From: Jiella endophytica
GTDB taxonomy: Bacteria; Pseudomonadota; Alphaproteobacteria; Rhizobiales; Rhizobiaceae
Direction: 5' to 3'
Length of the DNA stretch: 64,000 nucleotides
NCBI RefSeq assembly: GCF_004519335.1
Contig: NZ_SOZD01000003.1
Location: 62,001-126,000 of the forward strand
The position numbers were made by a program, and so were the translations under genes. Shown here piece by piece: positions 16,429-20,482 of this stretch. Within the stretch, counting starts at the first letter, position 1; each line of letters opens with the position of its first letter. The notes beneath the pieces were generated by a model, which did no database searches, was not told the DNA's origin, and worked only from the letters and a program-made list of their open reading frames with translations.

Positions 16429-17886
16429 TCAGCGCCTCAGCTCCCATGTCGTCACCCGCTCGCCGGTCGCAGGATCCTTGCCGTCCTTCAGCTGGATGCC
16501 TTGTTCCGCCAACGCGTCGCGGATGCGGTCGGCCTCGGCGAAGTTCTTCGCCTTGAGCAGCGCCAACCGCTCGGCAATCGCCGCCTCGACGGAAGCCTCG
16601 TCGAGGCCTGCCTGGCCCTTTGCCGCCGCCTCGGACAGACGCTTGGCGAAGCCGGCAAGGTCGACGCCGACGAGGTCGAGCGATGCGACGAGCGCCGCCG
16701 GATCGCTGCGGCGAAGCTGATGAAGTTCGGCGATCGCGGCCGCACTGGCGAGATCGTCGGACAGCGCCTCGACGAAGCGCTGGCTCGGCGCGCTCGCCGC
16801 GGCGCCCTCGCTTGCCCGAGCAAATCCGTCGAGCAGTTCCTCGGCCTCCTCCAGCCGCTTGACCGAAAAATCGATCGGCTCGCGATAGTGCGTCATCAGC
16901 ATGGCGAGCCGCAGCACCTCGCCCGGCCAGGCCCGACCGCCGAAGTTCTCTGTCTCCAGGAGCTCGCGGATGGTGAAGAAGTTGCCGTCGGACTTCGACA
17001 TCTTCTTCCCCTCCACCTGGAGGAAGCCGTTGTGCATCCAGACCTCCGCCATGGTGGCGCCGCCATGGGCGCAGCGCGACTGGGCGATCTCGTTCTCGTG
17101 GTGCGGGAAGATCAGGTCGAGACCGCCGCCATGGATGTCGAAGGTCTCGCCGAGGAGGGCTTCCGACATCACCGAGCATTCCAGGTGCCAGCCCGGCCGG
17201 CCGCGGCCCCAGGGGCTCTCCCAGCCGGGCTCCTCGGGCGAGGAGAGTTTCCACAGGACGAAATCGCCGGGGTTCTTCTTGTGGCTGTCGACGGCGATCC
17301 GCGCGCCGGCCTTCTGGTCCTCGAGCTTGCGGTTCGAAAGCTTGCCGTAATCGGCCATCGAGGTGACGTCGAACAGCACCTCGCCGCCCGCCTCATAGGC
17401 GTGGCCCTTGGCGATCAGCGTCTCGATCATCGCGATCATGTCGTGCCCGTCGCCGCGCTGGACATAGGCGGTGGCGCGCGGCTCGAAGCTCGGCTCGAGG
17501 CAGCCGAGCGCCGCGACGTCGGCATGGTACTGGTCGGCCGTCGTCGACGTCACCCTGGCGATCGCCTCGTTCAGCGGCAGGCCGGGGAAATCCCTCGCGG
17601 CACGCGCGTTGATCTTGTCGTCGACGTCGGTGATGTTGCGGACATAGGTGACATGCTCGGCGCCATAGAGATGGCGCAGCAGCCGGTAGAGGACGTCGAA
17701 GACGATCGCCGGCCGCGCGTTGCCGATATGGGCATAGTCGTAGACCGTCGGGCCGCAGACATACATGCGCACCCGCCGCTCGGCCTCGGAGGGCCCGCCG
17801 TCCCGCCAGTCGAGCGGACGGAATTCCTCCTTCGTCCGGGTCAGAGTGTTGTGGAGCCGCAAGCCGCGGAAGCCGTCGTCGGTCAT
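16429..17886 (-). CDS. cysS: Cysteinyl-tRNA synthetase
   Basis: Class I aminoacyl-tRNA synthetase that charges tRNA-Cys. The catalytic domain shows the zinc-ligand block [18 protein letters not shown] with the HIGH-type motif HIGN, the WHLECSVM zinc block, and KMSKSDGN in the KMSKS loop. The 485-residue length is normal. ATG 17886 is preferred over ATG 17892 because AGAAGGG then has the better spacing of about eight to nine bases. It lies upstream of trpL on the same strand, with a 70-bp gap. Confidence 0.96.
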
Positions 17887-18359
17887 GTCCATGTCCCTTC
17901 TGCGGTCGCTCGGCCGCCGCAGCCGGTTCGTCGTTCCAGTTCACGCGTCGCATTACAGGATGTCGCAGGCGATGGCGATTCGCTGCCGGCATGCGGCTTG
18001 GTCGACCGTGACGGGCACTCCATGAGGCGCCACCTTGCAACCGATGACCGGCGTCGTCGCGCGGCGATGTCCGGCGCGTCATCCAATCGTCATCGTCGGC
18101 GCTCTGGGCACTGACGGATCGTATCGCTCCGACACACAATTTGTCCTGAAAACCGGGCTCGGAACGATATCCCTCGAAGCCTGCGATTTGGCGAAATTCT
18201 TGCTCGTTTTCAGCCACTTCCCTGTCGCATGGAGGACACGCCCGCGTGCTCGCCCGACAATTTGCGACTTTCGCGCAAGGAAGCTTTAGCCATTGTCTTC
18301 AAACTGGCGCAATCGAGCCGCTGAAGTCGGCCATCCACATGCAGATGCGAGCACATGAC
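17887..18359. other. Intergenic region between cysS and a small protein gene
   Basis: About 470 bp without a convincing gene. It must hold divergent promoters for cysS and for the small gene at 18360. Open frames on both strands here have no recognisable domains or ribosome sites. No strong hairpin or riboswitch was seen. Confidence 0.5.
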
Positions 18360-18768: not shown

Positions 18769-19413
18769 TCAGTCCGCCGCGCCGATCTCGAGCGCTTCGG
18801 TGCGCGGCGCGACCAACAAGTCACCGACATCTCCCGGCCCGAAGTTACGGCAGTCGAGCCAGCGGCCGAAATCCTCCCTTGCGATCACCACCGGCAACCG
18901 CTCGGGCAGGCCGCGATCCTCGGGGCTCGTCGGCGCGGTCAGGATCGCCGCCGTGTCGATCTCGCTGCCGTCCGGCGCCATGTAGCCTTCCATCAGCCCG
19001 GCGATGGCGAAGATCGGCTCGCCGGCGATGGCGAGACGGCGGGTCGTCGCCGGCCCGTCACGATCTCTCCCGTCCATTCGGCGAAAGAAGGCGCTCGCCG
19101 GCACGAGGCAGCGGCGATGACGCATCGCGCCGCGGAAGGCGGCGTTCTCGGCGGCCGTCTCGGCCTTCGCGTTGAACATCGCCGGCAATTGCTCTTCGCC
19201 CCGGAACCAGCCCGGGATCAGCCCCCAGCGCACCAGTTGCGCAAAGCGGCCGGCGCGATAGGTGTCCACCCTCCCCTCGCTGCCGGCAAGGACGATGAGG
19301 ATCGGCTGCGTCGGCAGGATGCGCGGGCGCGGCGGAAAGTCGTCGATGCCGGCAAGGTCGAAATGGGCGGCGACGGCCCGGGGCGATGCCGTCAGGGAGA
19401 AGCGGCCTGCCAT
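18769..19413 (-). CDS. SRAP-domain (YedK/HMCES-like) protein lacking catalytic residues
   Basis: SRAP proteins cross-link to abasic sites in single-stranded DNA through Cys2 and shield them. This 214-residue homologue keeps the fold signatures: AGRFSLT at the N-terminus, RWGLIPGWF (62-70), NAKAET (81-86) and [10 protein letters not shown] (100-109). The key residues are changed. Cys2, exposed after Met removal, is Ala2. The Glu of GFYEW is Arg111 (AFFRRM). The His of HxRMP is Pro170 (PERLP). It should not form the normal thiazolidine DNA link. Whether it still binds DNA is unknown. It is divergent from the Nudix gene. Confidence 0.85.
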
Positions 19414-19478
19414 CTCTCAGATCTCCCGCTCGTCTTGCCGACCGGCGGAGCCTGACAGGAGGGCAACGCCAGGCAGCC

Positions 19479-19913
19479 ATGGAGTACGCCAGGATGCGCG
19501 AAGCAAGGCCACGTCTCGGAGTCTCCGTCTGTCTTTCGAACAGCAAGGGTATCCTTCTCGTGCGCCGGGGCAAGGCGCCCTATCGCGGCCTCTGGAGCCT
19601 TCCCGGCGGCGGCGTTCGCTTCGGCGAGCGGCTGCTCGACGCAGCGCGGCGCGAACTCATCGAAGAGACCGGGCTTGCGGCCGGTGATCTCGCCTTCGCA
19701 ACCTTTCACGAGGCGATCTCCGACGAGGGCCATGCGGTCATCGCGGTCTTTGCCGGCCATCTCGGCGCGGGCGCGGCGCCAAAGGCGCAGGACGACGCCG
19801 AAGCGGTTGAGATCGTCCACCCCGACGAGGTCTTCGCCCGCGAATCGGCAAGCGGGACGACGCCCGGCCTTCATGGTGTCGTGATGCAGTGCCTCGCTCT
19901 GTTCGATCGCTGA
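19479..19913 (+). CDS. Nudix hydrolase (ADP-ribose pyrophosphatase-like)
   Basis: This is a 144-residue Nudix protein that hydrolyses a nucleoside diphosphate linked to another group. The Nudix box GX5EX7REUXEEXGU is intact: [17 protein letters not shown] followed by IEETGL (about 46-68 from this start). The surrounding [11 protein letters not shown] and short length resemble ADP-ribose or NADH pyrophosphatase-type Nudix enzymes, and the substrate is uncertain. ATG 19479 is used; ATG 19494 is an alternative. Divergent neighbour is the SRAP-like gene 65 bp away, so both may answer to nucleic acid damage, which is only a guess. Confidence 0.88.
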
Positions 19914-20044: not shown

Positions 20045-20482
20045 ATGATGAATTCTGTCAACATGATCGTCAGACGACTCATACTCGCGGCCGTGTTGGC
20101 AACCGCCGGGCTCGCTCCGGCCGGCGGCGCCTTCGCGCAGGGTGAGGCACCGGAGGCCGCACAGCCCGAGCGCCAGGGCGATGCGGCCTACATGCAGCCG
20201 CTCGGCCGGTTGGCGATGATCCTCGGATCGATGCATTTCCTGCGCAAGCTCTGCGACGATCCGGAGGCGGAAGTCTGGCGCGACAAGATGCGCGAACTGA
20301 TCGACGCACAGGCGCCGACGGAGACCGAGAAGCAGCAGCTGATCGCGAATTTCAACAATGGTTACCGTACCTTCGCAGCGACCTATCGCAGCTGTACGAG
20401 CGCCGCGCGGATCGCCGTCAACCGCTACCAGAAAGAGGGAGCCGCTCTGGCACGGGAGATCGGCTCAAGGTACGGGAGTTAA
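20045..20482 (+). CDS. TIGR02301-family exported protein
   Basis: This is a 145-residue exported protein of a family found mainly in Hyphomicrobiales, function unknown. The N-terminus is a signal peptide (MIVRRLILAAVLATAGLAP, with a likely cut after AFA, about residue 31). The mature part has family blocks LGRLAMILGSMHFLRKLC and NNGYRTFAATYRSC, and two cysteines (about 70 and 117) that could pair in the periplasm. The stop codon TAA lies inside a CtrA-like box for the next gene. Confidence 0.82.
   Translation: MMNSVNMIVRRLILAAVLATAGLAPAGGAFAQGEAPEAAQPERQGDAAYMQPLGRLAMILGSMHFLRKLCDDPEAEVWRDKMRELIDAQAPTETEKQQLIANFNNGYRTFAATYRSCTSAARIAVNRYQKEGAALAREIGSRYGS

Follow-up and report, generated by a model that had tools for sequence, protein, structure and literature searches.

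The gene studied here, on the minus strand of a 64,000-nucleotide stretch of Jiella endophytica DNA (the window), is genuine: it encodes a conserved SRAP orthologue stripped of its catalytic residues, and it is not unique among bacteria. Our preferred explanation, to which we give a probability of about 55%, is that a Rhizobiaceae SRAP lost cross-linking in the ancestor of the genus and has since been retained to bind DNA non-covalently. The window protein matches the SRAP profile PF02586 over residues 1-209 at 128.9 bits (cut-off 27.1), and the fold signatures RWGLIPGWF and RRCLVP named in the initial annotation are both found in it. The positions of the gene, its altered codons and its neighbours are collected in Table 1.

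Table 1. The Cys2-less SRAP gene, its altered codons and associated features. Coordinates are those of the window, except in the last row.
Feature	Position	Strand	Basis or genus residues (n = 10)
Cys2-less SRAP-fold gene, 214 aa plus stop, ATG start	18769..19413	minus	ORF and Pfam match
Ala2 codon, YedK Cys2 column	19408..19410	minus	Pro 4, Ala 3, Val 3
Arg111 codon, YedK Glu105 column	19081..19083	minus	Arg 10
Arg112 codon, YedK Trp106 column	19078..19080	minus	Arg 6, Lys 4
Pro170 codon, YedK His160 column	18904..18906	minus	Val 5, Ile 2, Pro 1, Leu 1, Gly 1
Arg31-Ile32-Leu33, replacing Asn-Ile-Ala of YNIAP	19315..19323	minus	alignment columns
cysS (cysteinyl-tRNA synthetase), neighbour marking the ancestral locus	16429..17892	minus	profile match and synteny
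Small ORF separating cysS from the SRAP gene, 100 aa	18246..18548	plus	
NUDIX-domain gene, divergent neighbour, probable start near 19479	19386..19913	plus	
DUF2385 gene, conserved neighbour	20045..20482	plus	profile match and synteny
Head-to-head SRAP-like pairs in other genomes	G300 contig 11; G545 contig 1; G061 contigs 1826 and 1382		

In an alignment with the YedK encoded by E. coli K-12, Cys2 is replaced by Ala in the window protein, each of Asn37, Glu105 and Trp106 by Arg, and His160 by Pro; the numbering of the column tables follows L089, a YedK of viral-contig origin and approximately 90% identical to that of E. coli. The initial annotation had described a SRAP protein with its catalytic residues replaced, and Ala2, Arg111 and Pro170 do sit in the Cys2, Glu105 and His160 columns. 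The loss of the YNIAP Asn (YedK Asn37), the change of Trp106 to Arg or Lys, the loss of the C-terminal tail and the fixation of the changes throughout the genus go beyond that description. An alternative start giving Met-Cys was also checked. Upstream of the ATG the frame holds a single further codon (Glu) and then a stop. This leaves no room for a Met-Cys N-terminus, and a wrong start codon is ruled out.

None of the ten sequences of the genus (Jiella/Aurantimonas-like) has Cys at residue 2 or His in the His160 column, and the replacements of Glu105 and Trp106 are basic in all ten (Table 1). The Ala39 column is Leu throughout. Arg4, Pro40, Trp67, Glu79, Thr149 and Arg162 are kept in all ten; the Asn75 column (window Asn81) holds Asn in nine and Ala in one, and the Arg77 column Arg in five, Pro in three and Lys in two. 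We take Arg4, Pro40, Trp67, Glu79 and Thr149 to be DNA-contact positions in YedK numbering. Net charge ranges from -5 to +5, and the genus protein is thus not strongly basic overall. Among sister-genus orthologues, read as the 40 best-scoring matches and hence a non-random sample, Cys2, Asn37, Glu105 and Trp106 are present in 40/40 and His160 in 38/40, with Arg in two. Duplicates (L070, L080, L085), the copies from named records (L033-L038) and L041, which is distant, are excluded from this canonical set. Chance or sequencing error is rejected, as all ten genus sequences lack the Cys, Glu and His whereas all 40 sisters have Cys2 and the Glu.

The C-terminal part conserved in the sisters, a VN motif followed by a QxxLF-like end, is missing from all ten genus sequences, and inspection by eye of the three frames downstream revealed no remnant of it. 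Canonical Rhizobiaceae tails (L013-L032, L039, L040, L068-L088) carry a QLSLF-, QMSLF- or QLKLF-like motif at or near the end; Q..[LM][FILM] is present in 38 of the 40 canonical C-termini and the remaining two end in QLSFF. This ending resembles a beta-clamp-binding motif, much as HMCES carries a PCNA-binding box.

A protein search of 61 genomes gave matches in 56, and the copies in the other nine genus genomes are 62-68% identical to the window protein. Named records with loci matching the genus copies belong to Jiella, an Aurantimonas sp. and a Fulvimarina MAG. When a profile of the clade was run over 394 family genomes, the eight genus genomes sampled scored E <= 1.4e-108 and the best match outside the genus 6.3e-78. 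Synteny was read on flanks of 1.5 to 4 kb. The NUDIX gene, the DUF2385 gene and the small ORF adjoin the SRAP gene in 10/10 genus loci and cysS in 9/10, the exception (L004) being a shorter stretch. The 40 canonical rows have the NUDIX gene in 36, DUF2385 in 35, cysS in 28 and the small ORF in 27, with all four in 18 and at least one in every row. Because the genus and its sisters share these neighbours, the window SRAP is the ancestral orthologue altered in place. The neighbours are uninformative on function, being the same as the ancestral ones, and no polymerase gene is among those immediately adjoining the window SRAP gene. SOS control was considered as well: GTTCN7GTTC with at most one mismatch occurs 32 times in the window against 46.55 expected, with no match between 12186 and 19900. 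The 5' region of the SRAP gene thus contains no SOS-box-like match and SOS control was rejected.

The genus clade is monophyletic with 100/100 support. Its stem measures 1.29 changes per column in a tree of 53 rows, for which the bootstrap had nearly but not fully converged, and 0.76 in one of 66 rows. By synteny and tree, the window SRAP is the orthologue of the chromosomal Rhizobiaceae SRAP at the cysS-SRAP-NUDIX locus, and the acquisition of an odd paralogue is disfavoured by the same evidence. The frame is open in all ten genus genomes and 74 columns are invariant, including the new Arg. Pairwise dN/dS within the clade was 0.21-0.50 (median 0.348, 45 pairs). Neutral simulation under nine settings of 150 runs each gave medians of 0.96-1.17, with in-frame stops in 83-147 of 150 runs, at a synonymous divergence (median pS 0.15-0.36) below the median of 0.51 among the real pairs; the smallest individual simulated value, 0.49, reaches the top of the observed range, 0.50. 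With dN/dS of 0.21-0.50 against approximately 1 in neutral simulation, the gene is maintained. In six sequences of one canonical genus the median was 0.270 (maximum 0.331, 15 pairs), and by this comparison constraint on the window gene is perhaps slightly relaxed. The retention throughout the genus of a SRAP stripped of its cross-linking residues suggests that the fold has been reused for another role.

It had been proposed that the genome should be searched for a second SRAP with Cys2. One was found, L002, on a different contig of the window genome (G000 contig 3). Each of the ten genus genomes has two PF02586 matches, the window orthologue and one more; G008 additionally holds a 97-residue piece of a further SRAP copy. 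The full-length second SRAPs (10/10) start MCNLYSV, keep the Glu and His motifs and are 73-92% identical to L002. No relative of the second SRAP was found in the nearest sister, G031; G035 has one, 79% identical and approximately 2.7 kb from its first SRAP. G030 and G040 each have several MCNLYSV-type matches, some of them pieces or with an internal stop codon, and these multiple copies may reflect a mobile or plasmid-borne lineage. The Cys2 paralogue presumably took over the covalent job.

An AlphaFold2 model of the window protein, built on a 44-row alignment, had pLDDT 90.8 and pTM 0.90. VIA-align was used to re-align 992 chains preselected by Foldseek; 21 of these scored Z >= 2, and the same 21 scored Z >= 8. 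YedK, HMCES and structural-genomics SRAP entries make up the 15 that were listed. The best match to the model was 2f20 (Z 25.2, rmsd 1.9 over 198 residues), HMCES scored Z 23.4-23.8 and YedK Z 20.9-21.7, and the lowest of the listed entries was 2aeg at Z 19.9. The predicted fold of the window protein is thus the SRAP fold.

One paper calls Cys2 absolutely conserved in SRAP (PMC3765255). We surveyed 150 Pseudomonadota genomes of at least 90% completeness, 64 of which had PF02586 matches, giving 122 rows; 110 were read (30 loci and 80 stretches), the remaining 12 being the pair from the window genome and ten pieces, most of them short. Automatic alignment placed Cys at residue 2 in 86 rows, Thr in 6, Pro in 4, Ser in 3, Ala in 2 and Arg in 1 and left it unaligned in 8, with the Arg row (L325, 32 bits), one Pro row (L280, start ambiguous) and four Cys rows (L315, L318, L328, L330; fragments or weak) being doubtful and L304 counted as unaligned though its frame reads MCNLY. 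Four short SRAP-like proteins (L318, L319, L323, L324) have His at the Glu105 position, and each lies head-to-head with an opposite-strand PF02586 match approximately 0.1-0.5 kb away (Table 1). Viral SRAPs retrieved with the canonical profile have Cys2 in 51 of 52, residue 2 of the other (L219) being unreadable.

Three families contain classes in which Cys2 is wholly or partly replaced. Families f37, f49 and f56 may be Rhodobacteraceae, Pseudomonadaceae and Halomonadaceae, respectively. In f37 a search at E 1e-30 gave matches in 26 of 198 genomes, and 26 of the 27 rows read have Pro2 (L269, L279, L281, L334-L356). The other, L357, is an ordinary Cys2 SRAP with 41% identity, so the Pro2 class is present in 25 of the 198. 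Glu105, His160, Asn75, Arg77, Arg4, Pro40, Trp106, Thr149 and Arg162 are kept in all 27 rows, whilst the Trp67 segment is replaced by VGR.NARGRP, where the alignment is unsure. A class-wide search with a Pro2 protein (E <= 1e-30) found it in 3 of 289 genomes, all of family f37, and its 310 matches in plasmid records were all below 60% identity. In f56 a stripped class matched in 98 of 101 genomes. We read 52 of the 98 rows, 32 of them mostly top-scoring and 20 mostly lower-scoring (L272, L274, L277, L359-L387, L418-L437): residue 2 is Ala in 42, Ser in 5, Thr in 4, Pro in 1 and Cys in none. Glu105 is kept in 3/52 and His160 in 1/52 (L425), all within the lower-scoring set of 20, the Asn75 column is mostly Cys, and Arg4, Pro40, Trp106 and Arg162 are kept in 52/52 and Thr149 in 43/52. 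The f49 class matched in 91 of 99 genomes. Its 53 rows (33 plus 20; L268, L270, L271, L388-L417, L438-L457) have Ser2 in 32, with the start of L438 ambiguous, Thr2 in 10 and Cys2 in 11, and 49 keep Glu105.

The 66-row tree, which was built without the 40 later-read f49 and f56 rows and with 28 of the 41 eligible Cys2 survey rows, requires the Cys2 label to change five times, and at least four of these changes are forced by well-supported branches. Cys2 was thus lost at least four times in Pseudomonadota. The clear replacements are Ala, Val, Pro, Ser and Thr, and for four of these five no single base change leads there from a Cys codon. The set is consistent with preservation of a free amine, or just with a small N-terminus that is buried.

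The chemistry of such changes has been studied in YedK mutants, and the following points are from that paper (PMC9436759). Ring opening depends on Glu105, with help from His160, and Glu105 also drives formation of the imine. The C2A mutant makes no stable cross-link but forms an imine and cleaves the strand as an AP lyase. C2A E105Q is a 25-fold slower lyase with approximately 10-fold lower Schiff-base trapping, and C2A H160Q is 2.5-fold slower with trapping unchanged. One conformer of Glu105 touches the phosphate 3' to the AP site. By analogy, efficient cross-linking or strand cleavage is not expected of a protein in which residue 2 is Ala and Arg occupies the Glu position. The loss of cross-linking in the window protein is well supported by its residues together with these mutants. 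The initial annotation called the protein a likely pseudo-enzyme, a view now well supported by fixation throughout the genus, purifying selection, the intact predicted fold and the published C2A and E105Q mutants.

Under our preferred explanation, thiazolidine formation would be impossible without the thiol and the Glu, whilst the retained pocket (Arg4, Pro40, Trp67, Glu79, Thr149, Arg162, and Asn75 in 9/10) would still bind single-stranded or junction DNA. The invariant Arg in the Glu105 column, followed by Arg or Lys, suggests a standing phosphate contact: Arg111 and Arg/Lys112 may assume the contact made by Glu105 in the one YedK conformer, which would give reversible binding at abasic sites or 3' ends, with the covalent AP-site job carried by the Cys2 paralogue. 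A DNA-structure binder is plausible because most pocket positions are kept. Convergence in the f56 class, where Cys2 and nearly every Glu105 and His160 are gone while Arg4, Pro40 and Arg162 stay in 52/52, is a further point in favour of our explanation. Against it, Arg77, which probably contacts DNA, is Pro in 3/10 and Lys in 2/10, Trp106 is lost, and the protein is not strongly basic overall. According to PMC3765255, two conserved arginines of 1zn6, Arg86 and Arg180, could contact DNA; in our own reading these equate with YedK Arg77 and Arg162.

The SRAP fold of the clade could equally bind protein, and the changes at Arg77 and Trp106, the near-neutral net charge and the lost tail would fit a loss of DNA binding and reuse of the fold for protein-protein or structural work. 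We nevertheless consider this unlikely given the invariance of Arg4, Pro40, Trp67, Glu79, Thr149 and Arg162 and the near-invariance of Asn75 (9/10). Similarly improbable is a role in regulating or antagonising the Cys2 paralogue, whether by competition for DNA or by direct contact. All ten genus genomes do hold one full-length copy of each SRAP, but this is co-occurrence, the paralogue lies on another contig, and the f56-class Cys2-less SRAP is the sole PF02586 match in G464 and G468, so antagonism is unnecessary for that class. A slowly decaying pseudogene covered by the second SRAP might explain the long stem branch and a dN/dS slightly above that of one canonical genus. It is strongly disfavoured, and the least credible of these readings, as the frame is open in 10/10, dN/dS is well under the neutral medians and the 74 invariant columns include the new Arg.

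The protein might instead form an imine without a thiol, the alpha-amine of Ala, Val or Pro2, freed by loss of the Met, reacting with the abasic aldehyde to give a Schiff base and strand cleavage. Fpg and Nei form a Schiff base via an N-terminal Pro, and the initiator Met is removed when residue 2 is Ala, Val, Pro, Ser or Thr. Residue 2 is Ala, Val or Pro in all ten genus sequences, and family f37 contains a Pro2 class in which Glu105 and His160 are retained. YedK C2A is indeed a lyase with a trapped imine (PMC9436759), but the 25-fold slowing of C2A E105Q counts against such activity in the genus, where Glu105, the driver of imine formation, is Arg in 10/10. His160 and Asn37 are lost as well, and the small residue 2 may merely reflect a buried N-terminus. 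Imine formation by the window protein is thus unlikely, whilst the Pro2 class of f37 is predicted by analogy to be a natural N-terminal-proline AP lyase.

More broadly, and only tentatively, SRAP may be seen not as a single enzyme family in which Cys2 never varies, but as a DNA-lesion pocket whose covalent warhead has repeatedly been swapped or removed, in the clear cases leaving a free N-terminal amine. The window clade would then be an extreme case, its invariant Arg acting as a reversible reader of phosphates or DNA ends beside the Cys2 paralogue, and the Pro2 class a natural Fpg-like AP lyase. HMCES and YedK biochemistry rests on Cys2. Natural thiol-free proteins with a kept pocket separate binding from cross-linking and can therefore be used to test a non-covalent SRAP role. 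If the prediction for the Pro2 class is true, nature has turned an AP-site protector into an AP-site cutter. Among the open-licence papers searched we recognised none on natural Cys2-less SRAP or on clamp motifs in bacterial SRAP.

Some known systems are close to the window protein in fold or in locus. In PMC12926913, SRAP-like proteins are linked to UmuC-like polymerases and proposed as regulatory subunits; these are SRAP-related, whereas the window SRAP has no polymerase gene as an immediate neighbour. YedK and HMCES share with the window protein the fold (Z 20.9-23.8), the Pfam profile and the GRF N-terminus, and with its clade the Pro40, Trp67, Thr149 and Arg162 columns and, in 9/10, Asn75. 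Unlike them, the window protein lacks Cys2, Glu105, His160 and Trp106 and has a shorter C-terminus. The YedK C2A mutant (PDB 8d2m; PMC9436759) resembles it in having Ala2 and the same fold (Z 21.3), but is an AP lyase in which Glu105 and His160 remain; at these two positions the window protein has Arg and Pro. The f56 class (M[AST]GRL) has likewise lost Cys2, Glu105 and His160. It differs in that its Glu is replaced mostly by Val, Ile or Leu and never by Arg, its Asn75 is mostly Cys, and it forms a separate branch of the tree. The canonical Rhizobiaceae SRAP of the cysS locus is the orthologue and shares the locus of the window gene, but has Cys2 in 40/40, Glu in 40/40, His in 38/40, and a conserved tail with a terminal QxxLF-like motif.
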